Positions 405 to 24,122 of a stretch of 64,000 nt of DNA are shown in pieces. Both the position numbers and the translations under genes were made by a program. This DNA is from Aureimonas ureilytica (GTDB lineage: Bacteria; Pseudomonadota; Alphaproteobacteria; Rhizobiales; Rhizobiaceae). Numbering within the stretch: position 1 is the first letter of the stretch; each line of letters opens with the position of its first letter. The stretch lies in contig NZ_LDQA01000024.1 in assembly GCF_001475935.1 (NCBI RefSeq), forward strand, positions 1-64,000, given 5' to 3'. The notes under the pieces are model-generated. The model saw only the letters and a program-made list of their open reading frames with translations, searched no databases and was not told the origin of the DNA.

Positions 405-407
405 GGC

Positions 408-1019: not shown

Positions 1020-1020
1020 G

Positions 1021-1509: not shown

Positions 1510-1523
1510 GGGTCGGCCTAACT

Positions 1524-1555
1524 TTGTCTATTGGTCTAGACATCTAGTCTGGACG
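1524..1555. promoter_or_regulatory. Candidate PhnF operator between phnG and phnF
   Basis: The divergent intergenic region contains the perfect palindrome GTCTAGAC (1534-1541) within TTGGTCTAGACAT, followed at once by a related half, CTAGTCTGGAC. It resembles the TGGT-TAGACCA type site known for PhnF of mycobacteria. Its position between the two divergent starts suits a repressor that controls both genes. The assignment is by inference. Confidence 0.5.
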
Positions 1556-1588
1556 AAACCTCTCTAACCGTCCATCGGTGACATCCCA

Positions 1589-2356
1589 ATGACAGCGGGC
1601 GCCGCAGGGCGAGAAACATTTGAACGAGACGGACGCGTGAACGAGACGGACGAGGGCGTGACGCGCTGGCGGCGCGTGGCCGACAGGATCAGGTCGGCCA
1701 TCGCCGAGGGCACGATGGGGGAGCGCCTTCCGCCAGAAACGGAACTGGCGGAAACCTATGGCGTGAACCGGCATACGGTGCGGCGCGCGATCCAGTCTCT
1801 GTCCGCCGAGGGCCTGCTGCGCGCCGAGCGCGGGCGGGGCACCTTCGTCAACGCCGCCCCACCCCGGCTCGCCTATCCGATCGGCCCGCGCACGCGCTTT
1901 TCGGAGAATGTCTCGGCGCAGGGGCGCAGGCCCGGCGGGCGGCTGATCCGCGCCGATACGATGCGGGCGGACGGGGCCTTGGCCCAGTTACTCGACTGCG
2001 CGCCGGGCGCGATGCTGCACAGGCTGGAAACGCTCAGCGTCGCCAATGGCGTGCCGCTGTCCATCGCCACGTCGCATTTCTCGGTGGAGCGTTTTCCCGG
2101 CATCGTGCGGGCCTATGCCGAAACCGGCTCGGTGACGGAGGCACTGCGGCTGGAAGGAGTTGCGGATTATCGTCGCCGCGAAACGCGCATCACGGCCGAG
2201 CGCGTGCATCGGCTGGACGCCGAGCATCTGGCGAGCGCACCGGATGCGATCGTCCTCGTCAGCCTCGCGGTCGATGTCGATCTCGACGGGCGACCCGTGC
2301 AGGCGATCCGCGCGCGCTTCCCGGCCGACCGGATGGAACTCGTGTTGCGCCCCTGA
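1589..2356 (+). CDS. phnF: PhnF, GntR/HutC-family phosphonate regulator
   Basis: A 255-residue regulator with an N-terminal winged helix (about residues 25-90, with LPPETELAETYGVNRHTVRRAIQ) and a C-terminal UTRA-type ligand domain (about 100-245), the HutC arrangement. Divergence from phnGHI supports PhnF rather than another HutC protein. The ATG at 1589 was used; a GTG at 1637 would give a 239-residue protein, nearer the usual 240, and neither start has a strong ribosome site. It probably binds the palindrome at 1524-1555 and controls both itself and the phn operon. Confidence 0.85.
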   Translation: MTAGAAGRETFERDGRVNETDEGVTRWRRVADRIRSAIAEGTMGERLPPETELAETYGVNRHTVRRAIQSLSAEGLLRAERGRGTFVNAAPPRLAYPIGPRTRFSENVSAQGRRPGGRLIRADTMRADGALAQLLDCAPGAMLHRLETLSVANGVPLSIATSHFSVERFPGIVRAYAETGSVTEALRLEGVADYRRRETRITAERVHRLDAEHLASAPDAIVLVSLAVDVDLDGRPVQAIRARFPADRMELVLRP

Positions 2357-2364
2357 ACGCCAAA

Positions 2365-2390
2365 CGGCCCCGGCGGATCAGCCGAGGCCG
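2365..2390. terminator. Hairpin between convergent phnF and kinase gene
   Basis: Imperfect inverted repeat CGGCC-C-CGGC / GCCG-A-GGCCG (9 pairs, one mismatch, 6-base loop) in the 47-bp gap where phnF and the FGGY kinase converge. There is no clear T-run, so it would be a weak bidirectional terminator. Confidence 0.35.
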
Positions 2391-2403
2391 CGCGCTCTGT
2401 TGA

Positions 2404-4029
2404 TCAGGCCGCTGCGGCTTCCGCCTCGCGAATGCTGCGGGCTGTCTCTTGAAGCCGCAGGAAGGCGCTGTAGCGCCCGTCATGCAAAGCTCTCATGCCG
2501 CTATCGGGCTCGCAGCGCGCGCCGACATGCGACATGGCGGGCATCGCGGCCTTCAGACCGTCGAAGAGTTTCGCGGCGGCCGCGCCCAGCATGGCCGAGC
2601 CGAGCAGAACCGGCTCGGGGCAATCGATCACTTCGACCGTACGGTTCGTGGCGTCGGCCAGAAGCTGGCGCGTCAGCGGATGCGCGCCCGCGCCGCCGCT
2701 GATGCTGATCGTGCGGATCGTGAGCCCATGAGCCTCCTGCGTTTCCACGATCTGCCGCAGCCCATAGCCGAGCCCGCAGACGCCCGCGATATAGAGCGCG
2801 GCCAGCGAATCTTCGTCGCTTTCCATACCGAGCCCGGAGATCACGGCGCGCGCATGCGGATCGGCGAAGGGCGCGCGATTGCCGAGGAATTCCGGCACGA
2901 CATGCAGACCCCTCGTAAGGTGCACGGTCTCGCTGGCCGAAGCCGCGCCCCGCAGCGCCCGCTCGCCCAGCCATTGCGGCAGGGACTGGCCCTCCGCCTC
3001 CGCCTGCCGCGAGGCGGCGCCATGGGCGGGATGGCCGAGAAGAAGCTGGTCGATCGCCGCGCCCGCTGCCGACTGGCCGCCCTCGTTCAGCCAGAGGCCG
3101 GGCACCATGGCGGAGAAGTACGGTCCCCAGACGCCCGGCACGAAAACGGGCTTCACCGTCGTCGCCATGGTGCAGGAGGATGTGCCGAAGACATAGGCGA
3201 GGCAGGTCGTGGGATCGCCCGTGCCACCCGCCGCGCCGACCGTGCCGAGGCCGCCGGCATGGGCGTCGATCAATCCGGCCGCGACCGCCGTGCCGGGTCG
3301 GAGGCCGAAGGCGGCGGCGGCCTCGGCGGTGAGGCCCGAGCCCAGCGCCGTGCCGGGCTCGACGACGCTGGTGCCGATGCGGCGATAGCCATCGTCAGGT
3401 TGGTCGCCGAGCCCGATGGCGCGGAAATAGCTGTCGTCCCAGCGCCCTTCGGCGGCGAGATAGGTCCATTTGCAAGTGAGCGTGCAGGCTGAGCGGTCGA
3501 GCGCGCCGGTCGCCTTCCAGGTGAGGAAGTCCGTCAGGTCGAAGAAATGCGCCGCGCCCTCGTAGATCTCCGGCCGGTTCTCGCGCAGCCAGAGGAGCTT
3601 GGGCGTCTCCATCTCGGGCGAGATGCGCCCGCCGACATAGCGCAAAACGGGGTGGCCCATGGCGTTGATGCGCTCGGCCTCGCCGGTCGCGCGATGATCC
3701 ATCCAGACGATGACGTCGCGCTCGGGGTGGGCGGGGTCGCCGACCGGCAGCCCCTTCCCGTCCGGCCCGATCACGACCAGCGAGCAGGTCGCGTCGACGC
3801 CGATGGCGGCAATCCCGGCCGGATCGACGCCGCTCGTCGCCACCGCCTCGCGCACGGCTTCGCAGACGGCGCGCCAGATCGCCTCGCTCGACTGTTCGGC
3901 GATGATGCCGCGCTCGCGATGCATGTCGAAGGGGCGCTTGGCAAGGGAGAGAAGACGGCCCGTTTGATTGAACACGCCGGCCCGCGCGGAGCCCGTGCCG
4001 ACATCGATCCCGATCACATGATCCGCCAT
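2404..4029 (-). CDS. FGGY pentulose kinase, probable D-ribulokinase
   Basis: A 541-residue FGGY-family sugar kinase, close in length to D-ribulokinase (about 535). The N-terminal phosphate-binding motif DVGTGSARAGVF (about residues 8-19), the substrate-region segment VIVWMDHRATGEAERIN and the C-terminal ISGGAGAHPLTRQLLADATN motif mark the pentulose kinase subgroup. It is the last gene of an operon with a ribitol 2-dehydrogenase-like SDR and a sugar importer. The likely reaction is therefore D-ribulose + ATP to D-ribulose 5-phosphate. The ATG at 4029 follows a GGGAGAG ribosome site; an earlier start 21 nt upstream is less likely. Other pentuloses remain possible substrates. Confidence 0.82.
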   Translation of the reverse strand: MADHVIGIDVGTGSARAGVFNQTGRLLSLAKRPFDMHRERGIIAEQSSEAIWRAVCEAVREAVATSGVDPAGIAAIGVDATCSLVVIGPDGKGLPVGDPAHPERDVIVWMDHRATGEAERINAMGHPVLRYVGGRISPEMETPKLLWLRENRPEIYEGAAHFFDLTDFLTWKATGALDRSACTLTCKWTYLAAEGRWDDSYFRAIGLGDQPDDGYRRIGTSVVEPGTALGSGLTAEAAAAFGLRPGTAVAAGLIDAHAGGLGTVGAAGGTGDPTTCLAYVFGTSSCTMATTVKPVFVPGVWGPYFSAMVPGLWLNEGGQSAAGAAIDQLLLGHPAHGAASRQAEAEGQSLPQWLGERALRGAASASETVHLTRGLHVVPEFLGNRAPFADPHARAVISGLGMESDEDSLAALYIAGVCGLGYGLRQIVETQEAHGLTIRTISISGGAGAHPLTRQLLADATNRTVEVIDCPEPVLLGSAMLGAAAAKLFDGLKAAMPAMSHVGARCEPDSGMRALHDGRYSAFLRLQETARSIREAEAAAA

Positions 4030-4060
4030 TTTGTCTCTCCCTCGCAGCACTCGTCTTCGC

Positions 4061-4792
4061 TCAGACGCGGTCGAAATTGGTGGGCAGGACGATCATGTCC
4101 CGCACCGTCACCGTCCGCTTGCGCGTCAGGATATATTCCACCGCATCGGCGACTTCGCTCGGGTCCATCAGGCTGCCCGATTCCTTCGCCTTGCGCAGGT
4201 TCTCCTCCGGCCAGTCCGCGAGCAAGGCCGAAACGACGGGGCCTGGCGAAACCTGCGCGACGCGCACGCCGTGCGGGATCATCTGCCGGCGCATGGTCTG
4301 CACGAAGCAGGTCACGGCCCATTTCGAGGCGGCATAGACCGGCTCCCAATAGGTCGGGTAATGGCCGGCGATCGAGCAGGTGACGATGATGTCGCCCGTC
4401 TTGCGCCCGGTCATATGCGGCACAACGGCATGGACGTTCTTGATCACGGCGTTGACGTTGAGGTTCAGCATCCGGTCGATGGCGTCCGGCGTCGTCTCGG
4501 TCAGATCGCCGCCGATATAGAGGCCGGCATTGCAGTAGAGAATGTCGATATGATCGACCTTCTGCAGGATTTCCGGCACCATGGCGGCGCAGCTTTCCGC
4601 GTCGGTGAGGTCCGTCACCTGCGCGACGGCCTTCTCGCCCAGCTTGGCGGTGAGGCTCTTGAGCGCTTCCGCGTTGCGGTCCACCATGACCACGGTGGCG
4701 CCCGCGCCCAGAAGCTTTTCGGTCGTGGCGAGGCCGATGCCGGAGGCGGCGCCGGTGATGACGGCGATCTTGCCGTTCAGCGATTCAGACAT
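4061..4792 (-). CDS. rbtD: SDR oxidoreductase, probable ribitol 2-dehydrogenase
   Basis: A 243-residue short-chain dehydrogenase with NAD motif TGAASGIG (13-20), NAG (88-90), Ser140 and the Tyr153-xxx-Lys157 pair. Beyond the general fold, several stretches closely recall Klebsiella ribitol 2-dehydrogenase: the LYIGGDLTE region, WEPVYAASKWAV, SPGPVVSALLADWP, GSLMDPSEVADAV and the end VTVRDMIVLP. It should oxidise ribitol to D-ribulose with NAD+. The adjacent pentulose kinase would then give D-ribulose 5-phosphate for the pentose phosphate pathway. The gene sits 32 bp behind the permease in one operon. A related pentitol is the main alternative substrate. Confidence 0.83.
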   Translation of the reverse strand: MSESLNGKIAVITGAASGIGLATTEKLLGAGATVVMVDRNAEALKSLTAKLGEKAVAQVTDLTDAESCAAMVPEILQKVDHIDILYCNAGLYIGGDLTETTPDAIDRMLNLNVNAVIKNVHAVVPHMTGRKTGDIIVTCSIAGHYPTYWEPVYAASKWAVTCFVQTMRRQMIPHGVRVAQVSPGPVVSALLADWPEENLRKAKESGSLMDPSEVADAVEYILTRKRTVTVRDMIVLPTNFDRV

Positions 4793-4824
4793 GACGATGT
4801 TCCATGCTTGGGGGAAGAGGCCGG

Positions 4825-5796
4825 TCAGCGCCACTCGCGACCGATATAGATGGCGAGCAGGATGATGCCGCCCTTGATGACGTCCTGAAGGTAGGGGTTG
4901 ATGCCCATGAGATTCAGGCCGTTGTTGAGGATGCCGAGCAGCACAGCGCCGATCAGCGTGCCGAGGATCAACCCGCGCCCGCCGGAGATGGCGGTTCCGC
5001 CGAGCACCACGGCGGCGATGGCGTCGAGCTCGAAGCCGACGCCGGCATTGGGTTGGCCGCTCATCAGGCGACCGGTCAGGATCACGGCGGCAAAGGCCGA
5101 GGTGAGGCCCGAGATCGCATAGACCGCGAGCTTCACGCGCCGCGTCTTGACGCCCGAAAGCTGCGCCGCCGTCTCGTTGCCGCCCAGCGCATAGACATGG
5201 CGGCCGAAGGCGGTGCGTTGCAGGAGCACGAAGGCCAGTGCGTAGATCACCAGCATGATGACGACCGGGACTGGCAGGATGCCGATGCGCCCGATGCCGA
5301 ACCAGGAAATCCAACTCGGCAAGCCCGAGATCGGATAGCCGCCGGAATAGATCAGCCCGAGGCCGCGCGCCATGCCCATGGTCGCGAGCGTCACGATGAT
5401 GGCGGGCATTCGCCCCCAGGCGACGAGAAAGCCGTTGAGAAGGCCGATGGCGAGGCCCAGCACGAGGCCGATCGGAAGCGCTACTTCCGCCGGCAGGCCG
5501 GAATGGACGATGAGACCGGCCGAGATCGTGCCAACCAACGCCATGACCGCGCCGACCGAAAGATCGATGCCCCCGGTCAGGATCACGAAGGTCATGCCGA
5601 CGGCCAGAACCGCGACGACGGCGACCTGTCGCAGGACGTTGAGAAGATTGCTGACGGTGAAAAAATTGTCGCTGGCGAGCCCCATGAGGCAGGACACGAC
5701 GATCAGACCGGCCAGCGGCAGGACCAGCGGCGAATGGATGAGATTGCCCCAGGCGGCGAGCCGGTTGCGGGGAAGCGTGGTGGCATCAAGCGACAT
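4825..5796 (-). CDS. Sugar/polyol ABC transporter permease (RbsC type)
   Basis: A 323-residue inner-membrane permease of the ribose/xylose (CUT2) family with many hydrophobic segments. It has the family stretch [20 protein letters not shown] and the coupling region [20 protein letters not shown]. It forms the channel for the solute delivered by the binding protein encoded at 7341-8258. Its start overlaps the end of the ATPase gene by 11 nt, which couples their translation. Ribitol is the likely cargo, judged only from the dehydrogenase and kinase that follow. Confidence 0.92.
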
Positions 5797-7288
5797 GTTC
5801 GACCCTCCCGGTCGTGGCGAAACTCATGATCCGTTCGGCGTGGATGGCCTCCCCTTCGACGGTGGCGACGATGCCCCCGGATCGGAAGACGCAGACGCGG
5901 TCGGACATGCCGATCACCTCCGGCAGTTCGGAGGAGATCATGATGATGGCGTAGCCCTGCGCGGTGAAGGCGCGCATCAGCGCGTAGATTTCGGCCTTGG
6001 CGCCGACATCGATGCCGCGCGTCGGCTCGTCGAAGACCAGAACCTTCATCTGGTGGTTGAGCCAGCGGGCGATGACGACCTTCTGCTGGTTGCCGCCCGA
6101 CAGCGTATCGACGCGGGCATGCGGCCCCTGCGCTTTCACGCGCACGCGCGCCATGGCCTCTTCCGTCGCCACCTGTTCGGCCTTCAGATCGAGGAACCAG
6201 TGGTTCTTGCGATATTTGCCGTAATTGTTGAGCGAGATGTTCTGGAGGATCGAGAAGCTGGTGATCAGCCCCTGCTCCTTGCGGCTTTCGGGGAGAAGAC
6301 CGATGCCGCGCGCCAGCGCTTCGTCCGGCCCGGACAGGCGCAAGGACTGCCCGTCGATCCGCATCTCGCAGCGCGCGGCCGGATGCGTGCCGAGCATGGC
6401 GAGAACGGTCTCGGTGCGCCCGGAGCCGACGAGCCCGGCAAAGCCGAGGATTTCGCCCTGGCGCAGCTGGAAGCGCGAGATCGGCCCGCCCTTGCGGAGC
6501 TGGATCGCCTCGACATCGATCATGACGGGCGCGGAGGCATTGGGCGCGGGCTTTGGCGGGAAATTCGCCTCCAGCCGGCGGCCGACCATCATCTCCACGA
6601 GCCGGTCGTTGTCGATGTCGGCTACCGCGCATTCGCCGACGAAATTGCCGTCGCGCAGAACGGTGATGCGGTCGCAGATCTCGAAGATTTCGTCCAGATG
6701 ATGCGAGATGAAGACCACGGCGACGCCCTGCCGACGCAGCTCGCGCATGACCTTGAACAGATGCTCGACCTCGGACGGGGTGAGCGTTGCGGTCGGCTCG
6801 TCCAGAACGAGGATGCGCGCGTCGAGAAGCAACGCCTTGGCGATCTCGACGAATTGCTGCTGGGCGACCGAAAGCCGGCGCACCGGCACGTCCAGCGGCA
6901 CTTCGATGCCGAGCCGAAGAAGAACCTCCGCGGCGCGCCGGCGCATGGTCTTCTTGTCCAGAAGCCCGAGGGGACCGCGCAGTTCGCGCGCCAGAAACAT
7001 GTTCTCGACGGCGTTCATGTCGGGGATCAGGCTGAATTCCTGAAACACGATGCCGATGCCGGCCTCGATCGCCTGATCGTAATCGGCGAAACGCTTGACC
7101 TCGCCGTCGATGCGGATCGTTCCTTCGCTGGGCGCGAGGATGCCGCAGAGAATCTTCATCAGGGTCGATTTGCCGGCCCCGTTCTCGCCCAGCAGGGCAT
7201 GAACCTCGCCGGCGCGCACCGTCAGGTCGATCCCGTGCAGAACCTCGATCCGGCCGAAGCTCTTCTTGATGCCCCTGAGTTCCAGCAT
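5786..7288 (-). CDS. Sugar/polyol ABC transporter ATPase (RbsA type)
   Basis: A 500-residue protein with two fused ABC domains, as usual for CUT2 importers. Domain 1 has Walker [10 protein letters not shown] (34-42) and Walker [13 protein letters not shown]. Domain 2 has a degenerate Walker A (GLVGSGRTE), signature LSGGNQQKV and Walker [13 protein letters not shown]. Such proteins energise uptake with mainly one competent site. It lies between the binding-protein gene and the permease gene, separated from the former by a stem-loop that may lower its expression relative to the binding protein. Confidence 0.93.
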
Positions 7289-7308
7289 GTTGCCTCCCGT
7301 GGAAACGA

Positions 7309-7330
7309 CCCCCGCCCGAGCGAGCGGGGG
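7309..7330 (-). terminator. Stem-loop between binding-protein and ATPase genes
   Basis: Inverted repeat CCCCCGC / GCGGGGG with an 8-base loop in the 52-bp gap after the binding-protein gene. It lacks a T-run. It may stabilise the upstream transcript end or partly terminate, leaving the binding protein in excess, as in many periplasmic-binding-protein operons. Confidence 0.45.
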
Positions 7331-7340
7331 CCGGTGGCGA

Positions 7341-8258
7341 TTACCAGCTGAAGTCGGCGGCGTTCTTGGAGTCCACGACGCGCACGTCGATCAGGACGTC
7401 CTTGGGCACCACGCGCGCGCCCCACTTGTGGGCCAGCGCCATGCCGAGGCCGACGCGCACCTGATCGCGTGGGAACTGGGCGGTCGTCTCGATGAACGGG
7501 GTGCCGTCCGCGATCGCCTTCACCGCTTCCGGCGCGCCATCCACGGAGGTGAGCTTGATGTCGCGGCCCGAGCCCTGAATGGCGGCGAGCGCGCCCATCG
7601 CGCCGCCGTCGTTCACCGAGAAGATGCCGGCCAGATTCGGGTGCGACTGGATCATGTTTTCCACGACGCCGAGCGCGACCGAGCGGTCCTGACGGCCGTT
7701 CTGCGTGTCCACCAGCTTGATGTCGGCGAACTCGCCGAGCGCGGCCTTGCAGCCTTCGACGCGCTGGAGGATCGGCACGACGGGGATGCCGTCGAGGATC
7801 GCGACCTCGCCCTTGCCGCCGAGCTTCTCGCCCAGATACTTGCAGGACATGTAGCCGGCGTCCCGGTTCTTGGAGCCGACGAATGTGTCGACCGGGCCGT
7901 TGGCATTGGCGTCCACCGCCACGACCACGACGTTCTGCGCCTTGGCGGCCTGCACGGCGGCTTCGATGCCGGCGCTGTCGGTCGGGTTCAGAAGCAGAAT
8001 GTCGATCTTCTGCTGCAGCATGTCCTCGACGTCGGAAATCTGCTTGGCGATGTCATGGCCGGCATCCGTGACGACGACATCGGCGCCGATGCTGGCGGCG
8101 GCCGCCTTCAGCGCCTCCTGCATGGACACGAAATACGGATTGTTCAGCTCCTGAAAGCTCATGCCGATCTTGAGCTTGGTCGGCTCCTGAGCGCTGGCGG
8201 GGGCAGCCATGGCGAGCGCCAGGGCCGAGGCGGCGAAAAGCATTGTCTTCGAGAACAT
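7341..8258 (-). CDS. Periplasmic sugar/polyol-binding protein (RbsB type)
   Basis: A 305-residue periplasmic-binding protein of the ribose/galactose (peripla_BP_4) family. Residues 1-23 form a Sec signal peptide ending ASAQ. The mature start [23 protein letters not shown], the hinge segment [19 protein letters not shown] and the C-terminal [12 protein letters not shown] are family features. It is the first gene of the pentitol operon and has a strong GGGAGGA ribosome site. Ribitol or a related pentitol is inferred as ligand from the downstream ribitol dehydrogenase and pentulose kinase, not from binding-site residues. Confidence 0.92.
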
Positions 8259-8354: not shown

Positions 8355-9236
8355 TCAGTCGGCGATGACGAGGTCGCGGTTGGCGGCGAAATTCGCGCGG
8401 AACTGCGAGGGCGACATGCCCTTCAGCTTCAGGAAGTGTCGGTTGAAATTGGAGAGGTTGGAGAAGCCGACCTCGTAGCAGATTGTGGCGACGGCGAGCC
8501 CCGGCTCCGTCAGCAGCATCTTGCAGGCGAGATCGATGCGAAGCTGGTTGCGATAGCGCACCAGCGTCGTGCCGGTGTGCCGCTTGAAGGCGCGCGAGAA
8601 GACGCTGGGGCTCTGGCCCACGATGTCGGCCAGTTCCCGCTCCTCGACCTGCCGCGTCAGATGCTCGCGCAGATGGGCGAGCGCCCGGTTGATGCCGCTG
8701 TCCCCGGCCTGCGACAGGTTCGGCTCATAGCTGAGGCTGGCCAGAACCTCGTGCTCGCCGGTGGTGAGATGGTGCAAGATGTCCCAGAACAGAACGAGGC
8801 GGCGAAGCCCCTGCGCCTCCACCAGTTGGCGCATCAACGGCGCGACGATGGTGCTCGTGCCCTGGTCGAACAGGAGACCGCGCCGGCTGCGCTCCAGAAG
8901 CGCGGGTACCCCTTGCATCTCCGCGATCGTCTCGCAGGCGCTTTGAATGAAATGCTCGGGAAACTGGATGACGATGGAGCGTACCGGAACCACCTCGTCG
9001 GCGGGAACGTCGCTGATCCAGTTCTGCGGCAGATTGGGTCCGGTCACGATCAGCTGACCGGGCGAAAACGTCCCGGCGAAGTCGCCGATAAAGTATCGGC
9101 CCGATGTCGCGACGATCAGGTGAATTTCGTATTCCGGATGATAATGCCAGCGCACCGTGCGGAACGGATAGCCATGCATCCAAGCCGCAAACGACTCGCC
9201 TTTTCGAACATGCACCAGTTCCAGGTCCGGCTGCAT
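8355..9236 (-). CDS. AraC-family regulator of the pentitol operon
   Basis: A 293-residue regulator with an N-terminal cupin-like sensor domain (HYHPEYEIHLIVATSGRYFIGD, about residues 31-55) and a C-terminal pair of helix-turn-helix motifs (about 185-285). The latter include the AraC signature VATICYEVGFSNLSNFNRHFLKLKGMSPSQFR. It lies directly upstream of, and on the same strand as, the ribitol-type importer operon, so it most likely activates it in response to the pentitol. The ATG follows a GGGAGGTGAGG ribosome site. An 8-bp inverted repeat lies about 125 bp upstream (9362-9392). Confidence 0.88.
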   Translation of the reverse strand: MQPDLELVHVRKGESFAAWMHGYPFRTVRWHYHPEYEIHLIVATSGRYFIGDFAGTFSPGQLIVTGPNLPQNWISDVPADEVVPVRSIVIQFPEHFIQSACETIAEMQGVPALLERSRRGLLFDQGTSTIVAPLMRQLVEAQGLRRLVLFWDILHHLTTGEHEVLASLSYEPNLSQAGDSGINRALAHLREHLTRQVEERELADIVGQSPSVFSRAFKRHTGTTLVRYRNQLRIDLACKMLLTEPGLAVATICYEVGFSNLSNFNRHFLKLKGMSPSQFRANFAANRDLVIAD

Positions 9237-10569: not shown

Positions 10570-10626
10570 TCTCTGCGTCGTCAATCGTTCCGTGCCGGTA
10601 CATCCGCGGTCACGGAGCGAGACGAA

Positions 10627-10836
10627 TTAGACAGCGCGAAGGTTCTCGGCTGCGTTCTTGCCCGAACGACGGTCGGCGACGACGTCGTAGCTGACCTTGT
10701 CGCCTTCCTGAAGCGAGCTCATGCCCGAACGCTCGACGGCGGAGATGTGGACGAACACGTCCGTGCCGCCGGTCTCAGGCGAGATGAAGCCGAAACCCTT
10801 AGTGGTGTTGAAGAATTTTACGGTGCCGATAGCCAT
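10627..10836 (-). CDS. Cold-shock domain protein (CspA family)
   Basis: A 69-residue single cold-shock domain starting MAIGTVKFFNTTKGFGFISPE, with RNP1 (KGFGFI) and RNP2 (VFVHIS) RNA-binding motifs. Such proteins melt RNA structure and act as RNA chaperones in the cytoplasm. The ATG at 10836 has an AAGGGA ribosome site; a longer frame adds MKGTV and is not needed. It is monocistronic, with a strong terminator and a long leader region, as is usual for csp genes. Confidence 0.95.
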   Translation of the reverse strand: MAIGTVKFFNTTKGFGFISPETGGTDVFVHISAVERSGMSSLQEGDKVSYDVVADRRSGKNAAENLRAV

Positions 10837-15757: not shown

Positions 15758-16513
15758 TCAGCGCTCCGCCGAAAGGGCGGTGGTGCGGGCGCGGCGGCCG
15801 CGCTCGTCGGCTTCCATCAGCTCCTTGCTGACATTCTGGATATGGCGGGTCATCGCCTTGTAGGCCGCTTCCGGATTGCGCATCCGCAGCGCCGTGAGAA
15901 CGGCATGATGATCGCCGATCCAGAGCGGGCGTACGCTCGGCGCATGGATATGCTCGTGCAGCTTCTTCCACATCAGCGACTCGTCGCGTTGCACCCAGAG
16001 CGTTTCGATGATCGAAAGAATGATGGCATTGCCTGTCATCCGCGCGATGGTCATGTGGAAGTCCCGGTCGCCCTTCTCGTGGTCGAGCTGGGCATTGGTC
16101 TCGTATTCCATCCGCGCCATGCAGTCTTCGAGCGTGGCGAGGTCGTAGCTGGTGGCCCGCTCGGCGGCCATGGCGGCCGCGCTGGCTTCCACCGCCATGC
16201 GCGCGTCCAGAAGCTCGAACGGCCCCGCGCCGGCATCGGCATTGATCTTGTCGAAGGCCGAGATCGGCCCGCGAACCGGCAGGACGGTGATGCCCATGCG
16301 CCCCTTCACTTCCACGATCCCGCGCATTTCCAGCGCGATCACGGCCTCGCGCACCACCGGCCGGCTGACCTCCAACTCCTCGGCCAGTTCGCGCTCGGAC
16401 GGCATCCGCCAGTCCGTGTTCTTCGCGTTGACTTCGATGAGCCGGGCAATGCGGCGCGCGACGGTCTGATACAGGCGTTCGCTCGGTTGGCGGAGGGGGG
16501 CGTCGGCCGGCAT
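15758..16513 (-). CDS. FadR-type GntR regulator of the adjacent sugar locus
   Basis: A 251-residue regulator with a winged helix (about residues 10-80, MPSERELAEELEVSRPVVREAVIALEMRGIVEVKGRMG) and an all-helical FCD ligand domain (about 95-235) with the metal-site His pattern DFHMTIA. The ATG at 16513 gives the usual FadR-family length and has GAGGA upstream; the frame extends further but without a good start. It is the third gene behind two Gfo/Idh/MocA dehydrogenases. Two TGGTNNGACCA sites, the typical operator form for this subfamily, flank the promoter region of that operon. Confidence 0.88.
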   Translation of the reverse strand: MPADAPLRQPSERLYQTVARRIARLIEVNAKNTDWRMPSERELAEELEVSRPVVREAVIALEMRGIVEVKGRMGITVLPVRGPISAFDKINADAGAGPFELLDARMAVEASAAAMAAERATSYDLATLEDCMARMEYETNAQLDHEKGDRDFHMTIARMTGNAIILSIIETLWVQRDESLMWKKLHEHIHAPSVRPLWIGDHHAVLTALRMRNPEAAYKAMTRHIQNVSKELMEADERGRRARTTALSAER

Positions 16514-16620
16514 GTCGTCCTCATGAAGCGGACGCCACCCGGCACCGGGTGGCGCAGTGTCGAGACGTCCGGCGCCGATGATCCGTTTTCGAACCATGGC
16601 GTCCAGAGCGGCCAAACGTC

Positions 16621-17721
16621 CTACGACTGGAACTTCTGCGCCGCGCGCATGTCGTCCGGCAGCCAGGAGCGATAGAGCGGATGGCTTGCGGTGATCGGCA
16701 GCGGCGTCGGCTGGCCGGTGCGCTGCGAATGATAGGCGGCCGTCACGAGTTCGAGCGAGTTGCGCGCGTCCTGCAAGGTCACGGGTGGCTCGCCATCCTC
16801 CACGATGGCGGCATGGAACAGCTCGAACTGCCTCGTATAACCGTCCTCATGAGTTTCATAGGCGGCCAGCGCCTCGTCCACGCGCGCTTGATGCGCTTCG
16901 TCGCCTGCGATGAAGGTCCAGGGATCGCGGCCCATCGTGTAGGGCTCGAGAATACTTTCGGCCACCAGATCATGGAAGCAGAAGCGCAGGCGCGAGATTT
17001 CCTTGCGCGAGCCGAGCGTCATGGAGAGGCTCGCCAGCGAGCCGTTCGCCATTTTCACCGAAAGTGTGGCCGTATCCTCGACCTCGATCGGGTTCACCAG
17101 CGTCGCGCCATAGGAGAAGACCTCCGCGCAGGCCCCATGGACATAGTTCAGCATGTCATGGGCGTGGATCGCGTGGCCGAGTAGGCCGCCGCCGAGTTCC
17201 GACTTCCACTTGCCGCGCCAGGGCACTTCGTAATAGGCCGGCCCGCGCCACCAATGCGTCTCGATCGTGGTGAGGAACGGGCGGCCGGTCAGCCCCTTCT
17301 CGATCAGCATCTTGACCTTCTGGAGGCCGGTCCCGTAGCGATACTGGAAGATCGGCATGAGCTTGGGGCCGTTCGCGCGGGCGACGATCCCGGCCATCTC
17401 GTCCACTTCCGCGATGGAGCCGAAAAGCGGCTTCTCGCAGATGATGTGCTTGCCCGCCTCGATGCCGCGACGGGACAGATCGAAATGCGAATCCGGCGGC
17501 GTGCAGATGTCGACGAGGTCGAGATCGTCGCGTCGGAACAGCGTGTCCACATCCTGCGTATATTCGGGAATGGCATATCGATCGCAGAGCTTGCGGCCGC
17601 GATCCTCGTCCAGCGAGCAAAGGACGACGACCTCGTAGAGATCCTTGATCCAGTCGAAGCCGGCCAGATGCCGCTCGGCGATGCCGGCGCCCACGATGCC
17701 GACGCGCAGTTTCCGGGTCAT
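16621..17721 (-). CDS. Gfo/Idh/MocA-family oxidoreductase
   Basis: A 366-residue NAD(P)-dependent sugar dehydrogenase. It has an N-terminal Rossmann motif (VGIVGAGIAERHL, about residues 6-18), the family EKP motif (CEKPLF) and a C-terminal alpha/beta substrate domain with GGGLLGHAIHAHDML. Family members oxidise sugars, inositols or sugar acids. It starts 14 bp behind a second Gfo/Idh gene and precedes a FadR-type regulator. The pair probably act in sequence on one imported sugar. The ATG at 17721 was chosen because the Rossmann motif follows directly. The substrate cannot be told from sequence. Confidence 0.9.
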   Translation of the reverse strand: MTRKLRVGIVGAGIAERHLAGFDWIKDLYEVVVLCSLDEDRGRKLCDRYAIPEYTQDVDTLFRRDDLDLVDICTPPDSHFDLSRRGIEAGKHIICEKPLFGSIAEVDEMAGIVARANGPKLMPIFQYRYGTGLQKVKMLIEKGLTGRPFLTTIETHWWRGPAYYEVPWRGKWKSELGGGLLGHAIHAHDMLNYVHGACAEVFSYGATLVNPIEVEDTATLSVKMANGSLASLSMTLGSRKEISRLRFCFHDLVAESILEPYTMGRDPWTFIAGDEAHQARVDEALAAYETHEDGYTRQFELFHAAIVEDGEPPVTLQDARNSLELVTAAYHSQRTGQPTPLPITASHPLYRSWLPDDMRAAQKFQS

Positions 17722-17734
17722 GGTATCCCCACTC

Positions 17735-18745
17735 TCAGCGATGGCCGAGGCGCACGGCGTTCGCCTGCGCTTCCAACGACAGGCGGCACACCTCGAAGAC
17801 ATGGCGCTGCGGCATGGCGGTTTGGGTGCGGTGCTTCACGTCGTCGGCGAAGGCCTGGAAATAGGGCAGCTTCTCTTCGCTGCAGTCGATATGGACGTTC
17901 TCGGTTCCGTTGACGAGGAAGAGGTGGTCCTTCCCCGGACGGCCGGAAATGTCGATATATTTGCGCAGCTCGATATAGCCTTCGGTTCCCAGGATCGTCA
18001 GGCGGCCGTCGCCCCAGGTGCCGAGCGCGTCGGGCGTGAACCAGTCGACGCGCACGAAGCCCGACGCCTTGTCCGAGCGCAGCAGGATTTCGCCGTAATC
18101 CTGGAAGCGGGGTTTGTCGGGCATGGCGAAATTGCCGATCGCGCTCGACACGATCTCGGCGGTCTCGGAGCCCGTGTAATAGAGGAACTGGTCGATCTGG
18201 TGGGACGCGATGTCCACGATGATGCCGCCGAAGCGGTCGGGATCGAAGAACCAGTCCGGGCGGGTGGCGAGTTGCAGCCGGTGCGGCCCCATGCCCATGG
18301 TCTGCACGACCCGCCCAATGCGGCCCTCGCGCACGAGTTCGCCAGCCTTCACGGCAGAGCGCACGCTGTGGCGTTCGGTGAAGCAGACCGAGAAGATTTT
18401 TCCGGTTTCCTCCACCGTGCGGCGGACCTCTTCGAGCTGGGCGAAGGTGGTGACGCCCGGCTTGTCGGTCATCACGTCCTTGCCCGCCTTCATGGCGCGC
18501 ACCGCGAGCCCGGCGCGATCGGCGGGAATGGCGGCGATGCAGATGATGTCGATCGACGCGTCGGCGAAGATCGCATCGCGGTCGAGCTTGGGCGCGTTCG
18601 GATAATCGGTTTCGAGGGCCTTGAGGACGCCGGGCGCGGTGGTCTCCGGACAATAGCCCGCGAAGTCGCAGCCCGCCGCGATCAGTCCCTTGATATGGTC
18701 GAAAATGTGCCCGTGATCGATACCCACGGCCGCAAACCTCAGCAT
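17735..18745 (-). CDS. Gfo/Idh/MocA-family oxidoreductase
   Basis: A 336-residue dehydrogenase of the Gfo/Idh/MocA family, more distant from the first copy. The nucleotide-binding start is AAVGIDHGHIFDHI and the family EKP motif is replaced by DKP (TDKPGVT). The substrate domain contains GGIIVDIASHQIDQFLYYTG. It is the first gene of a three-gene operon (two dehydrogenases and a GntR regulator) transcribed away from an ABC-transporter remnant. Its promoter region carries two FadR-type palindromes. The specific sugar is unknown. Confidence 0.88.
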   Translation of the reverse strand: MLRFAAVGIDHGHIFDHIKGLIAAGCDFAGYCPETTAPGVLKALETDYPNAPKLDRDAIFADASIDIICIAAIPADRAGLAVRAMKAGKDVMTDKPGVTTFAQLEEVRRTVEETGKIFSVCFTERHSVRSAVKAGELVREGRIGRVVQTMGMGPHRLQLATRPDWFFDPDRFGGIIVDIASHQIDQFLYYTGSETAEIVSSAIGNFAMPDKPRFQDYGEILLRSDKASGFVRVDWFTPDALGTWGDGRLTILGTEGYIELRKYIDISGRPGKDHLFLVNGTENVHIDCSEEKLPYFQAFADDVKHRTQTAMPQRHVFEVCRLSLEAQANAVRLGHR

Positions 18746-18801
18746 GTCCGAATGCTCCTCCCGTCACGGATCGGCGCGTCAAAACTTCCGGTGCGCGTCG
18801 T

Positions 18802-18812
18802 TGGTCAGACCA
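18802..18812. promoter_or_regulatory. FadR-type GntR operator, copy 1
   Basis: TGGTCAGACCA, a perfect 5-1-5 palindrome matching the TGGTNNGACCA operator form of FadR-subfamily GntR proteins. It lies 57 bp upstream of the first dehydrogenase gene of the operon that encodes such a regulator. Confidence 0.65.
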
Positions 18813-18897
18813 GACACAGCGTTCCAGCGAATGTCAAGACAGCGCGCGCCGCAGGCCTGGGACAAGACTCTCAGCCACTCTTGGATCATCGAAAATC

Positions 18898-18908
18898 TGG
18901 TAAGACCA
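18898..18908. promoter_or_regulatory. FadR-type GntR operator, copy 2
   Basis: TGGTAAGACCA, the second copy of the same operator form, 96 bp from copy 1 and about 50 bp before the start of the transporter remnant. Two copies between divergent transcription units suit shared control by the GntR regulator encoded at 15758-16513. Confidence 0.65.
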
Positions 18909-18960
18909 ATTATTCCGAGCGTATGGCCTGAAATGTGGGAGTCTCGCCAGCGACCAGGGA

Positions 18961-19180
18961 TGACGTTCAACCGGGAAAGCGGCACAGGCCGTTCTTGGCC
19001 GTCTGGGCGCTCGGCGCGTCCATGGCTTTCGCCTCGACGGCCCTTGCGGACGAAATCCCCCGCGCCTGCCAAGACGTCGGCTTCGGCTGCGCGGTGATGG
19101 CGCTCGTGATCGAGCGCTTCGAGGCCTCGAACCAGGGCATCGAGGTCAAGGTCGAGAACTCCCCTATCGGCCACTGGTGA
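18961..19180 (+). pseudogene. Remnant of a sugar ABC transporter binding-protein gene
   Basis: The plus strand encodes a short, broken product resembling the first part of a family 1 extracellular solute-binding protein: a signal-peptide-like FLAVWALGASMAFASTALADE followed by VIERFEASNQGIEVKVE. The latter is the usual 'FExxNPxIxVxV' opening of mature proteins of this family. It then stops at TGA (19178-19180), while family members have about 400 residues. The likely ATG at 18961 is in another frame from the signal peptide, suggesting a frameshift as well. Divergence from the Gfo/Idh operon, with shared operators, fits a lost import operon for the same sugar. Confidence 0.5.
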
Positions 19181-19323
19181 AAAGCCTCCCCGTCCACCTG
19201 GAATGGGGCCATGGGCTGGATATGGCCCAGGTTACCCATCGAGGGCGGCGCGCAGCTCGTGGACGGGGCTTCGGATCGAAGCACGGCCCGACGGCATCCG
19301 CAGGGCCTCGGCTTCGGAGGAAT

Positions 19324-19347
19324 GGCCTCGTCCGAAAGGACGAGGCC
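19324..19347 (-). terminator. Terminator hairpin of the permease-SDR-oxidase operon
   Basis: Perfect 10-bp stem GGCCTCGTCC / GGACGAGGCC with a 4-base loop, 4 nt past the lactone oxidase stop. The T-run is missing, but the position and strength fit an operon-end hairpin. Confidence 0.7.
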
Positions 19348-19351
19348 GGTT

Positions 19352-20590
19352 CTAGCCCAGGAGCATCCGCACATGGTCGTTGAGAAAGCGGCCGGCGGGA
19401 TCGAGCCGCCGGCGCAGGGCGCGGAAATCGTTGGCGTGCGGATAGAGATGCGTCACGTCCGCCTCGTCGAGGAAGTGCATCTTGCCCCAGTGCGGGCGGG
19501 AATCGTAGCGCCGCAGGATCGCATCCACATCGCGCAGAAAGTCCCAATAGTCGATGCCAGGGCCGCCCGAGACCGACAGCGTGATCGAATCCTGCCTGTG
19601 GAACGGGCTCATCCAGGCGTCGTCTCCGGCGGTGAACCGGTATTCGATGGGGTAGATGCAGTTGGTGTGATTGGTCAGCATCAGCTCGCGCACCGCCCGA
19701 ACCGCCTCTTTCCCGTGCCGGAGCGGCACGGCATATTCGAGTTCCACGAAGTTCGGCACGTATTCGATCGGATAGACCTCCGAGGAATAGGCGATCTTCT
19801 CGAAAGGCGCTTCCATCGGCTCGCCCTCGGTGATGTCCATCACCTTCATCTCGCAGACGTCGGAGGTCTTGCGCGTGGTGGAGCGCGGCGCGTCCGATGT
19901 GTCGGCCAGGCAGTAAAGATGCCGGCTTTCGGGCACCGGGCACCAGAAGAAGCCGAAATGGCGGTGGTTCGCCGCCAGCTCGTCATGGCGCTCCATGCAG
20001 GTCTCGAAATCGTCCCGCCAGACATGCTCGTGAAGATTATAGGCGGGGACGGTCTTCAAGGTAATGGCCGAAATGACCCCGAGCGTGCCGAGCGAGACGC
20101 GGGCGGCGAGCAGCAGGTCGGGGTCGGACCCGTCCACGTCCAGAACCGAGCCGTCCGGCTGGACGAGGCGCAGCCCCACGATCTGCGAGGCGAGGCAGCC
20201 GAGCGTTAGGCCGGTGCCATGGGTGCCCGTGGTGAAAGCGCCGGCAATGGCCTGCGTGTCGATATCGCCCTGGTTGGAGAGCGAAAGACCCAGGTCCTTC
20301 AGCGCCCGGCCGACATCGCCGATCCGCGTGCCGGCGGCGACCGTGACATGCTCGCCCTCGACCTTAAGGACGCCCTTCATCTCCTGAAGCGAGAGGCGCA
20401 GGCCGCTCGTGCCGACGACGGGCGTGAAGGAATGGCCCGAACCGGCGACGCGCACGGGCAGGTCCAGCCGGTCCGCCTCGGCCACCATCTCGCAAAGCTG
20501 CGCTTCCTCGGTCGGCATGGCCTTGTAGCGCGAGATGCAGGACTGGTTGCCGACCCAGTTGCGCCAGAGGCCGCCCTTTTCGAATGTCAT
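19352..20590 (-). CDS. FAD-linked lactone/alditol oxidase (D-arabinono-1,4-lactone oxidase family)
   Basis: A 412-residue VAO-family flavoenzyme. The FAD-binding half (about 15-170) contains AGSGHSFTP, where His53 is the expected covalent FAD site. The C-terminal ALO domain carries the catalytic HWGK motif (367-370). Relatives oxidise aldonolactones such as L-gulono- or D-arabinono-1,4-lactone, or free alditols. It is last in an operon behind an APC permease and an SDR, 13 bp after the SDR stop. The substrate is open. I chose the ATG at 20590 because the family N-terminus (WRNWVGNQ) follows directly. Confidence 0.87.
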   Translation of the reverse strand: MTFEKGGLWRNWVGNQSCISRYKAMPTEEAQLCEMVAEADRLDLPVRVAGSGHSFTPVVGTSGLRLSLQEMKGVLKVEGEHVTVAAGTRIGDVGRALKDLGLSLSNQGDIDTQAIAGAFTTGTHGTGLTLGCLASQIVGLRLVQPDGSVLDVDGSDPDLLLAARVSLGTLGVISAITLKTVPAYNLHEHVWRDDFETCMERHDELAANHRHFGFFWCPVPESRHLYCLADTSDAPRSTTRKTSDVCEMKVMDITEGEPMEAPFEKIAYSSEVYPIEYVPNFVELEYAVPLRHGKEAVRAVRELMLTNHTNCIYPIEYRFTAGDDAWMSPFHRQDSITLSVSGGPGIDYWDFLRDVDAILRRYDSRPHWGKMHFLDEADVTHLYPHANDFRALRRRLDPAGRFLNDHVRMLLG

Positions 20591-20603
20591 GAGGCCCTCT
20601 CCC

Positions 20604-21371
20604 TCAGATGGCGGTGAAGCCGTTGTCCACGAAGAGATGCGCGCCGTTGACGAAGCTCGCCTCGTCGCTGAGCAGGAAGAGCGCGGCATTCGCCACTTCC
20701 TCCGGCCGGCACATGCGCCCCTGCCCCGCCGCGATGGCCGCCTCCGAAGCATCGACGCCGTGGGCGGTCAGGAGTTCGACCTCGCGGTTGCCATGGGCCG
20801 TCGCGATGAAGCCGGGGCAGACGGCGTTGCAGCGCACGCCCTTGTCGCGGAACTCCACGCCGATGGCGCGGGCGAACATGTGCACCGCGCCCTTTGTCAT
20901 GTCGTAGAGCACCTCGGCGGGCGTCGCCGCCACGGCCGAGATGGAGGAGGTGCAGACGATCGCCCCGCCGCCCGCCGCGATCATGCCCGGCAGAACCGCG
21001 CGCGTCATCAGAAACATGGAGCGGACATTCACGTCCATCAGCCAGTCGTAGTCCTCGTCGCTCGTCTCCAGGAAGGGCTTCACCACGATCGAGCCGGCAT
21101 GGTTGAAGAGGGCGGTCGGCGCGCCGAAGGCTTGGTGGGCGGCCGCGACCGCCGCCTCCACCGCATCGCGCTTCGACGCGTCGGCCTCGGCGAAGATCGC
21201 CTCGCCGCCGCCCGCCCGGATGTCGGCGGCCAGCGCCTCGCCCTTTTCGCGCTGCCGATCCACGATCGTCACGCGCGCGCCCTCGCGGGCAAAAATCCGC
21301 GCGGCGGCCGCGCCGCATCCATCGGCCCCGCCCGACACGAGCGTGCTGCGGCCGTTCAAACGTCCCGTCAT
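20604..21371 (-). CDS. SDR-family oxidoreductase
   Basis: A 255-residue classical short-chain dehydrogenase. The nucleotide loop is SGGADGCG (13-20), with NHAG in place of the usual NNAG (90-93). Catalytic Ser142/143, Tyr156 and Lys160 follow, with the C-terminal FVNGAHLFVDNGFTA that closes most members. It probably oxidises or reduces a polyol or keto acid with NAD(P). It is the middle gene of an operon between an APC permease (67 bp upstream) and a FAD lactone/alditol oxidase (13 bp downstream). The substrate is unknown. Confidence 0.88.
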   Translation of the reverse strand: MTGRLNGRSTLVSGGADGCGAAAARIFAREGARVTIVDRQREKGEALAADIRAGGGEAIFAEADASKRDAVEAAVAAAHQAFGAPTALFNHAGSIVVKPFLETSDEDYDWLMDVNVRSMFLMTRAVLPGMIAAGGGAIVCTSSISAVAATPAEVLYDMTKGAVHMFARAIGVEFRDKGVRCNAVCPGFIATAHGNREVELLTAHGVDASEAAIAAGQGRMCRPEEVANAALFLLSDEASFVNGAHLFVDNGFTAI

Positions 21372-21438
21372 GTTGGGTCTCCCTGCAAGATCGAATGGGC
21401 GAGGCGACCCGAAGCCACCTCGCCCTTGCGGCCTGACG

Positions 21439-23013
21439 TCAGCGCGTTTCGCCGACGGCGCTTTCGGCGGCACGGATGGCGGCCTGCCGCTTGGCGATCT
21501 CGGCGCCGATGGGAGGCCCCATGAAGCGCCGACGCTCGAACAGGAACCAGACCAGACCCGACACGACGAGGAAGCCGAGCGTGATGTAGAGGGCGTTGTC
21601 ATTGGGCGGCTGCACGCCGAGCACGAAGATCAGCACCATGGCGAGGATGGAGAGAATGCCGGCCAGCATGAACGGCCCGCGCCCGATATTCCACGGCCCC
21701 ATCTTCGGCCATTTCGCGCCGCCATAGGCCAGAAGCCCCGCGACGATCGGGATGGCGAAGGAGAAGAACAGGAAGATCACCGTGCAGGAGACGACGATCG
21801 CATAGGCCGAGGTTTCGCCGAAGCTGACGAGCGAGGTGCCCCAGACGAAGAGCACCGACAGGATCGCGCCCGTCCAGATGGCTGGCACCGGCGTGCGGAA
21901 GCGCGGATGGACCGAGGCGAGCGTCTTGGAGGCCGGCAGGCCGCCGTCGCGCGAGAAGGCGAAGATCATGCGCGAGACGGAGGTGACCGTCGCCATGCCG
22001 CAGAGGAATTGGGCGACGAAGATCGCGGCATAGAGAATGTCGCGCCAGAGCGCGGGCACCTGCGTGTCCATGGCCCAGAAGAAGACGTTCCAGCCCTGCG
22101 CGGCGGCGGCGTCCATATCCGGGATCATCAGGACGAAGGAGCAGAGCACGATATAGCCGGCGATGCTCGACCAGAGGACGGAGGAGACCATGCCCTTCGG
22201 CACGGCGCTCGCCGCGTCCCGCGTTTCCTCCGACGTGTGGGCCGAGGCGTCATAGCCGGTGATCGTATAGATCGGCAGGAGCAGGCCGAGCAGGAAGGCC
22301 CAGCCCGTCGACATTTCCGGCCAGACATTGCCGCCCGCCGCGCCAGAATAATTGTGGAAGGTGAAGAGCCGGGCGACGTCCCAGGACGGGGCGCAGGCGA
22401 GGAAGGTGAGCGCCAGCACGACCGAGGTGGCGAGGATCAGCGATCCCGAGAAGTCGGTGAGCTTGGCCGTCAGTCCGATGCCGACATGGTTGATCACGGC
22501 CTGAAGCGCTGTGATGACGACGAGAAAGCCGATGCGCGTGCCGATCGTGTCGCTCATGCCGAGCGCCGGGCCGAAGGCGCCGTAGAAGAAGTAATAGGTG
22601 CCGACATTGATGGCGCCCAGCACCGTGACGAGGCCGAGAAGGTTGAACCAGGCGGTCAACCAGCCGATGAAGCGGTTGCCGAGGATCGAGCCCCAGTGAT
22701 AGAGGCCGCCCGCCGTCGGATAGGCCGAGGCGATCTGCGCCATGGCGATGGCGAAGACGGCCGAGACCGCGCAGCCGAGCGGCCAGCCGATGCCGATGGC
22801 GGCGCCTCCGGCCCCGGACGTCGCCTGGGCCAGCGAATTGATGCCGCCCGACAGGATGCAGATGATCGAGAAGGAAATGGCGAAGTTGGAAAAGCGGCTC
22901 ATGCGCCGCTCCAGCTCCTGCGCATAGCCCATCGAATGCAGAACCTGCATGTCGGCGTGTTTCTGATCGTCGGTATAGGTGGCGGGAACTCCCGGCGGCA
23001 CTGGGCTTGTCAT
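21439..23013 (-). CDS. APC-family amino acid permease
   Basis: A 524-residue inner-membrane transporter with about 12 hydrophobic segments. The APC hallmarks are FAISFSIICILSGGINSL near helix 1 and the helix-6 stretch ITGYDASAHTSEETRDA. The eukaryote-like GABA/amino-acid permease branch (BAT1/UGA4 type) fits best. The ATG at 23013 has GGAGAGG upstream and gives the usual start; another ATG at 23040 adds nine residues. The gene is divergent from a LuxR-type regulator and leads an operon with an SDR and a FAD oxidase. The cargo may be an amino acid or amine; the following enzymes do not reveal it. Confidence 0.87.
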   Translation of the reverse strand: MTSPVPPGVPATYTDDQKHADMQVLHSMGYAQELERRMSRFSNFAISFSIICILSGGINSLAQATSGAGGAAIGIGWPLGCAVSAVFAIAMAQIASAYPTAGGLYHWGSILGNRFIGWLTAWFNLLGLVTVLGAINVGTYYFFYGAFGPALGMSDTIGTRIGFLVVITALQAVINHVGIGLTAKLTDFSGSLILATSVVLALTFLACAPSWDVARLFTFHNYSGAAGGNVWPEMSTGWAFLLGLLLPIYTITGYDASAHTSEETRDAASAVPKGMVSSVLWSSIAGYIVLCSFVLMIPDMDAAAAQGWNVFFWAMDTQVPALWRDILYAAIFVAQFLCGMATVTSVSRMIFAFSRDGGLPASKTLASVHPRFRTPVPAIWTGAILSVLFVWGTSLVSFGETSAYAIVVSCTVIFLFFSFAIPIVAGLLAYGGAKWPKMGPWNIGRGPFMLAGILSILAMVLIFVLGVQPPNDNALYITLGFLVVSGLVWFLFERRRFMGPPIGAEIAKRQAAIRAAESAVGETR

Positions 23014-23049
23014 CGACCTCTCCGTGTTCTGCGGCTGCATGCACGTCCC

Positions 23050-23065
23050 TGACTGCGATCAGTCA
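23050..23065. promoter_or_regulatory. Inverted repeat upstream of the permease gene
   Basis: Perfect 6-4-6 inverted repeat TGACTG-CGAT-CAGTCA, in the divergent region between the permease and the LuxR-type regulator. It is a candidate binding site for that regulator. Confidence 0.4.
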
Positions 23066-23228
23066 TGGGTCTCCAGCGGGGGCGATCTTCCAGCCGACCC
23101 GCCAATCTGCCTAGTCTGGAGGCAGGGTTAAGACCTGTGCAATATCACCAAAGGGCTATTCCACCGTCCAGTCGCTTTGTTAGGCTCCCTTCCGTCCGAT
23201 CGGTTGGGTGAATGGGGGTGCTGAGCAT

Positions 23229-24122
23229 ATGGCGCGATCTCCGGCGGGAGGCGGGCGGGAAGCCCATGCGGGCGCGAGCTGGCTGTCGGATGTCTCGCGA
23301 CTGATCGCGCGTCTGGGGGAGCCCGATCTGCCCGATGTGCTGGATGAGGCGCTGCGCGGGCTGGCCCCGTTCGATCTCAGCGTTGTCTTCGCCTATCCCG
23401 CGAGCGGTCGGCCGCTGTATCTTCACGACGGGTTCGGCGGGCATCGGCCGGGAGCGGCGCTCGACGCCTATCTCGACGGGGCCTATCTGCTCGACCCCTT
23501 CTATGTCGCCTGCGCCGAGCCCGTACCATCGGGCCTTTACCGGATGCGCCAGTTGGCGCCCGACGCCTTTTTCGAGGGCGAATACGTGAACAATTGGGAG
23601 GTGCATCCCTGCATCTCCATGGAGTCCGGGTCGCTCGCGGAGGAAATCGGCTTCATCGTGGATCTGCCGCGCGGGCTGACGGCGGTCTACTCGCTGATGC
23701 GCAGCGCCGGCCGCCCGCCCTTCAGCGAGGCCGAGTTCGACCGCCTGAGCGCCGCCGAGCCGATCGTTCGAGAGACGCTGCGCCGCCAGTGGACCGATCT
23801 CGCCGCGCCGCAAGGCGAGCCGGCGCTCGGCGCGGACCCGTTCGACGCGGATCATGGATTGGACGACGCCTTCGCCCGCTTCTGCCCGGGTCTTCTCTCG
23901 ACGCGCGAGCGCATGGTGACGCAGATGGTGCTGCGCGGCCATTCGACCCATTCGGTCGCCTCGCTGCTCGGGATCGCCGAGGGAACGGTGAAGAATCACC
24001 GCAAGAGCATCTATGCCAAGCTGGGGATCGCCAGCCAGCAGGAGCTGTTCAGCCTGTTTCTGGGCCATGCCCTGTCGGGTCGCGAAACGGCCCGTGAGCT
24101 TCCCGGCGTCGATATAAGTTAA
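23229..24122 (+). CDS. LuxR-type HTH transcriptional regulator
   Basis: A 297-residue regulator with a C-terminal LuxR/GerE helix-turn-helix (about 230-285: [45 protein letters not shown]). The N-terminal alpha/beta domain (about 20-200) has no motif of acyl-homoserine-lactone binding that I can see. It is divergent from an APC permease operon and probably controls it. The ATG at 23229 was chosen over a GTG at 23208 because a GGGGG ribosome site precedes it; both are possible. Confidence 0.85.

Follow-up and report, generated by a model that had tools for sequence, protein, structure and literature searches.

Regulators of the FadR subfamily of GntR proteins recognise palindromes with TKGT and ACMA boxes, in which GT and AC usually lie 3 nt apart; this spacing is also given for ExuR, and the part of the source available to us (PMC4494728) further describes divergons of this subfamily that have double sites, each near its own operon. 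In Rhodobacteraceae, glucuronate loci have been described that combine a novel ABC importer with a GntR regulator named UxuR, the importer being predicted to be co-regulated by GntR with the genes of the UxaC route, and one genome was reported to be without both importer and regulator (PMC5507952, in part). Background on the Escherichia coli UxuR is available in PMC12842492 (in part). The literature that we searched yielded no description of a divergon that pairs a gfo1-gfo2-gntR operon with an ABC importer.

The window analyzed here is a stretch of 64,000 nucleotides from Aureimonas ureilytica (contig NZ_LDQA01000024.1, positions 1 to 64,000). With a probability of about 85%, we read one of its loci as a half-dead divergon, whose importer operon has decayed and whose enzymes, regulator, and operators have been kept. 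Like the FadR-subfamily divergons described in the available part of PMC4494728, it has two sites, one per operon, but here the importer operon is dead. The combination of an ABC importer with a GntR regulator is also shared with the Rhodobacteraceae glucuronate loci, a likeness of description rather than of compared importer families. As far as that partly available source goes, the present case is of the same kind as those loci; it is unusual in having a clear fossil, none being described in the available part of PMC5507952, as well as copies at different stages of decay within one genus.

The enzyme-regulator operon lies on the minus strand and consists of gfo1 (17735..18745, first gene), gfo2 (16621..17721), and gntR (15758..16513, last gene). 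Gfo1 and Gfo2 are Gfo/Idh/MocA oxidoreductases, in both of which the N-terminal GFO_IDH_MocA domain and a C-terminal domain score over the Pfam cut-off. Members of the Gfo/Idh family usually have a glycine-rich motif near the N-terminus, where Gfo1 and its relatives show GIDHGH, GLDHRH, or similar; the closest solved structures to Gfo1, 3u3x and 2p2s, are each named merely oxidoreductase. The regulator belongs to the FadR subfamily (with an FCD domain) by its domains, PF00392 (4.3e-14) and PF07729 (3.1e-25) both being above cut-off, and its helix-turn-helix stretch is conserved among 15 aligned orthologs. Its best NCBIfam scores are to ExuR (6.6e-45) and UxuR (7.3e-44), which, together with the TKGT/ACMA boxes and 3-nt GT-AC spacing of the window sites (PMC4494728, in part), likens it to these proteins. 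However, since both scores are far under the equivalog cut-offs (153.6 bits vs 396 and 150 vs 442, respectively), we file it as nearest to ExuR/UxuR rather than as a member, and it further differs from them in its linked genes, which encode the Gfo/Idh pair and, in intact relatives, an ABC importer.

An intact counterpart of the locus was found by a Gfo1 scan of GTDB species genomes, which gave 255 pattern stretches, 210 of them encoding a relative, the best 80 of the 210 being kept. The ORF caller was trained on window genes, and in some loci (e.g., L070, L143, L148, L150, and L158) it found hardly any genes or none; there, the absence of a gene depends on the caller and the absence of a site does not. 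The top relative locus, L088, belongs to A. ureilytica DSM 18598, in which gfo1-gfo2-gntR stands opposite divergent genes for a binding protein, two permeases, and an ATPase; their Pfam domains (SBP_bac_1/SBP_bac_8, BPD_transp_1 twice, and ABC_tran with TOBE) are those of a binding-protein-dependent carbohydrate ABC importer. The sequence-only reading had proposed that an importer was lost and that enzymes and operators remain, and had suggested looking for an intact ABC operon in relatives; such an operon, in the same order, occurs in L088 and in 12 further loci (L129-L139 and L154) of Devosia, Pelagibacterium, Chelativorans, Martelella, and one Rhizobiales isolate, and in the window about 90 binding-protein codons are left in place of an intact importer operon. 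The divergent layout is also present in L169 (Rhizobiales). In another Rhizobiales locus, L170, the GntR occurs together with the binding protein, permeases, and ATPase, with no match to Gfo1 or Gfo2, and Rhizobium sp. P32RR-XVIII (L112) has gfo1-gfo2-gntR and two sites without the divergent importer. No credible match to a binding-protein fossil was found upstream of Gfo1 in L112, L188, L099, or L089.

Between the window and A. ureilytica DSM 18598, Gfo1 is 98% identical over 336 aa and Gfo2 93% over 356 aa. The dN/dS values for this pair are 0.036 for Gfo1, 0.20 for Gfo2, 0.17 for GntR, and 0.37 for the binding-protein fossil, pairwise values from which the loss of the importer is not datable. 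The dS between the window and L088 is uneven, at about 0.3 for Gfo1 and Gfo2, 0.83 for GntR, and 0.5-0.7 for three genes of the phn region, which looks as though recombination had swapped part of gfo1-gfo2-gntR (15758-18745).

The fossil of the binding-protein gene occupies 18977..19245 on the plus strand, as delimited by tblastn and by DNA alignment to L088. Its first part (18977-19165) corresponds to codons 3-65 and is 67% identical over 63 aa to the binding protein of A. ureilytica DSM 18598, which bears out the earlier proposal that a plus-strand fragment at this place is the start of a sugar-binding protein. The second part (19159-19245) corresponds to codons 64-92 in another frame, with 62% identity over 29 aa, and at the junction of the frames the window has one base fewer than L088. 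The extent first given to the fragment has to be revised, since homology runs on in another frame to 19245, past the end of the plus-strand ORF (18935-19180, 81 aa), and the fossil is therefore both longer than the ORF and frameshifted. In the profile search suggested as a check, the 81-aa ORF alone matched nothing in Pfam, with E allowed to reach 1, or in PDB, with E allowed to reach 10; it was direct comparison with the L088 binding protein that settled the homology. A weak further trace at 19246..19265 (plus strand; 19 of 20 bases; score 35 vs 32 for the best of 200 shuffles) is a possible scrap of the same gene, from about codons 200-206, left after an internal deletion. Neither importer permease has a match within the window, and the importer ATPase has only weak matches, to other ATPases. 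A genome-wide search covering the binding protein and the first permease gave 28% identity for the next best binding-protein match by E-value and 35-37% for the best match to the first permease.

Other readings of this fragment were weighed. That the ORF encodes a small secreted peptide still in use might be suggested by its 81-codon open frame with a hydrophobic leader and by the dN/dS of 0.37 over 63 codons; a value below 1 is expected in any case, as some of the divergence may have arisen before the loss, and the start codon of the parent gene is lost (comparison of start contexts), a frameshift lies within the longer homologous stretch, and the -35 box has decayed, all of which make such a peptide very improbable. 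We give even less credit to an assembly or sequencing artefact: a lone single-base frameshift could be an error, but the remainder of the importer operon is also absent from the window, and the site lies within a contig of 168 kb, in a genome whose completeness is rated at 99.46%. A more serious competitor, which we nevertheless consider the less probable account, is that a rearrangement moved gntR-gfo2-gfo1 together with the first part of the binding-protein gene, the importer being lost at that moment without decay in place. Both flanks indeed differ between the two genomes: in A. ureilytica DSM 18598, the ATPase gene adjoins that of a phnF-like GntR and gntR is followed by an M19 dipeptidase, and the window has SelO plus the ALO cluster on one side and phnI-phnH-phnG with a phnF-like gene (3-2356) on the other. 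However, the frameshift, lost start codon, and decayed -35 box of the fossil indicate that point decay occurred too.

The two palindromes that had been noticed between the Gfo/Idh-GntR operon and the plus-strand fragment are both exact copies of the pattern TGGTNNNACCA. The proximal site, TGGTCAGACCA (18802-18812), is the presumed operator of the gfo1 operon and is identical in A. ureilytica DSM 18598; the distal site, TGGTAAGACCA (18898-18908), is the presumed operator of the lost importer operon and is identical in both A. ureilytica DSM 18598 and a third Aureimonas genome, G210. In its looser form, TGGTNNGACCA with one mismatch allowed, the motif did not hold up as enriched by raw count (4 matches, at two places on both strands, vs 6.6 expected). 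The exact pattern TGGTNNNACCA occurs only at these two positions in the 64 kb, whereas dinucleotide shuffles of the window contain 0.19 on average and reached two in 1 of 100 shuffles; two copies within 150 bp arose in none of 200 first-order Markov simulations. Both sites fit the TKGT/ACMA boxes of the FadR subfamily with GT and AC 3 nt apart, and GntR is their presumed binder. All 22 site bases are identical between the window and A. ureilytica DSM 18598, against a background of 128 identical columns among the 215 others of the intergenic region (Fisher p 2.3e-5). The pattern also follows the regulator: it is found within 270 bp upstream of Gfo1 in all 14 loci with a GntR ortholog of at least 67% identity and, in 600 bp examined, in none of the remaining 66 loci (Fisher 6.6e-16 over the 80 loci, relatedness ignored). 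L169 and L170, whose GntR orthologs are near 60-62% and whose importer is present, have no exact TGGTNNNACCA in 19.9 kb each. The motif is not private to the GntR of the gfo operon, as a similar pair of TGGTNNNACCA copies lies at 7670 and 7745 of a G210 locus (L218, G210:C4:156000-171499), between another FadR-type GntR and UxuA; the corresponding genes of the window genome (L216) have no such site.

Promoters were approached by comparing -35 boxes, in place of a generic scan for sigma-70 promoters and terminators, which found none in 18700-19400; no -10 box was found, and an Rfam search of 18500-19600 gave no family. On the enzyme side, the gfo1 operon has a presumed -35 box, TTGACA (18832..18837, minus strand), which lies 19 nt before the proximal site, an arrangement seen in all 10 rows with an exact proximal site, including the window. 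For the importer, 9 of the 13 intact divergons, that of A. ureilytica DSM 18598 among them, have TTGACA 3 nt ahead of the site, the four without it being three from Chelativorans and one from Martelella; at this position the window has a putative decayed box (18889..18894, plus strand) that matches TTGACA at 4 of 6 bases, and G210 one that matches at 1 of 6.

Taken together, the following history would account for the locus. An ancestral GntR nearest to ExuR/UxuR would have governed both gfo1-gfo2-gntR and the binding protein-permease-permease-ATPase operon through one operator per promoter. At the predicted importer promoter the operator comes right after the -35 box, and at the predicted enzyme promoter it follows at 19 nt, positions that would each suit a repressor. 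Of the importer operon, the window lineage has kept about 90 codons, which are frameshifted, and the start codon and -35 box have decayed; the regulator, the enzymes with their -35 box, and the two operators are all still there. Induction of the enzymes by a ligand of the hexuronate type therefore probably persists. The substrate probably enters by another route now, most simply a second hexuronate ABC importer elsewhere in the genome.

A more advanced stage of decay is seen in G210. Its locus L188 (G210:C4:171500-191400) has intact genes for Gfo1 (86%) and Gfo2 (84%), no credible importer match in 19.9 kb, and a GntR reduced to a 42-residue fossil containing a stop, the further-decayed copy being traceable at 8382-8507 and 10595-10760. 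The proximal site is eroded and no longer matches; the distal site and the enzyme-side TTGACA are intact. Constitutive expression of the enzymes is predicted for this copy. Since G210 keeps the distal site despite its fossil GntR, retention of that site may be a matter of chance as well as of selection. Close Gfo1 proteins (at least 86%) occur in 3 of 21 Aureimonas genomes, with relatives at 51% in two more. In a Gfo1 tree of 83 rows (the 80 loci plus the window, L188, and L169), the window and A. ureilytica DSM 18598 are sisters (100/94) and G210 falls outside (100/97). As the sister of the window is intact, the window and G210 would most simply have lost the importer independently; the tree is built on one protein and could mislead, given that silent divergence is uneven along the operon.

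With regard to the substrate, the imported compound seems rather likely to have been a hexuronate or hexuronide, because GntR is nearest to ExuR/UxuR and UxuA was called beside 7 of the 13 intact divergons. UxaC and UxuB were called beside two of these, and all three enzymes are present in L170; the exemplars used for UxuA and UxaC score above the respective NCBIfam cut-offs, and the one for UxuB does not, its best match being fructuronate reductase. None of the three was called within the 19 kb locus of A. ureilytica DSM 18598, so the link to hexuronates comes from other genera and from the regulator. The Gfo pair would oxidise the imported compound. Gfo2 weakly matches the solved glucuronide-3-dehydrogenase 8tdi (7.7e-12), which makes C3 oxidation of a glucuronide by Gfo2 a possible chemistry; the glycoside 3-dehydrogenases of the Gfo/Idh family, of which 8tdi is an example, are distant relatives of Gfo2, and Gfo1 has no match to 8tdi at E 0.001. 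Another sugar or a polyol acted on by the Gfo pair appears less likely. Such a compound would agree with the best NCBIfam score of Gfo2, to inositol 2-dehydrogenase (1.2e-32, under cut-off), and with the six of 13 intact divergons in which UxuA was uncalled (in one, L139, UxuA was seen in pieces), but it sits poorly with the affinity of GntR to ExuR/UxuR, the linkage of UxuA, UxaC, and UxuB in several genera, and the weak match to 8tdi.

A candidate for the present route of a hexuronate-type substrate is a second module, UxuA-GntR-UxaC-binding protein-ATPase-permease-permease-UxuB, which is present in all three Aureimonas genomes with a close Gfo1. In the window genome it lies at 6952-16155 of L215 (G000:C101:90000-109900), its importer parts being confirmed by Pfam, and the copies in A. 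ureilytica DSM 18598 (L217) and G210 (L219) are 86-99% identical to it, gene by gene. No TGGTNNNACCA occurs in 19.9 kb around each of the three copies. It is plausible that this second importer took over substrate uptake. A related module (UxuA, GntR, binding protein, ATPase, and two permeases) adjoins gfo1-gfo2 in L112, where the GntR of the gfo operon is present, and in L093, from which it is absent. Among the 21 Aureimonas genomes, UxaC was found in 16 and UxuA in 20. Importers near Gfo1 (up to 6.5 kb away) were also tallied over the 80 loci, as judged by the ORF caller and with a TRAP reference whose identity was confirmed: 13 have the importer of the original type, 6 a 38-59% relative of its binding protein, 4 the importer type of the second module (one of these also with TRAP), one TRAP alone, one a third ABC type, and 55 none of these. 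Tentatively, gfo1-gfo2 might be a portable uronide-processing module whose importer is swapped from lineage to lineage, some having the module's own ABC type, others a different ABC type, TRAP, or no importer nearby; in Aureimonas, its own ABC importer would have been dropped at least twice independently, the enzymes being kept under selection and fed by the second hexuronate importer, with the regulator and both operators retained in the window and, in G210, enzymes without the regulator that may be constitutive.

Intact, half-dead, and nearly dead copies of one regulated transport-catabolism divergon are found in Aureimonas, and the fate of a regulator and its operators after importer loss becomes testable within a single genus. 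In addition, sites, promoter geometry, and a probable ligand class are predicted for an uncharacterised system of GntR, Gfo/Idh, and ABC proteins, which is intact in Devosia, Pelagibacterium, Chelativorans, and Martelella.

Several neighboring genes of the window may also be recorded. Positions 3-8258 hold the phn genes phnI, which the window edge truncates, phnH, and phnG, together with a UTRA-type GntR; after these comes an operon encoding an FGGY kinase and a periplasmic binding protein of the sugar type. In A. ureilytica DSM 18598, the phn genes instead adjoin the importer ATPase. Beside the fossil, 19352-24122 holds a D-arabinono-lactone oxidase type enzyme, an SDR, an amino acid permease, and a LuxR-type regulator, and the first of these is found in 3 of 21 Aureimonas genomes, including that of the window.
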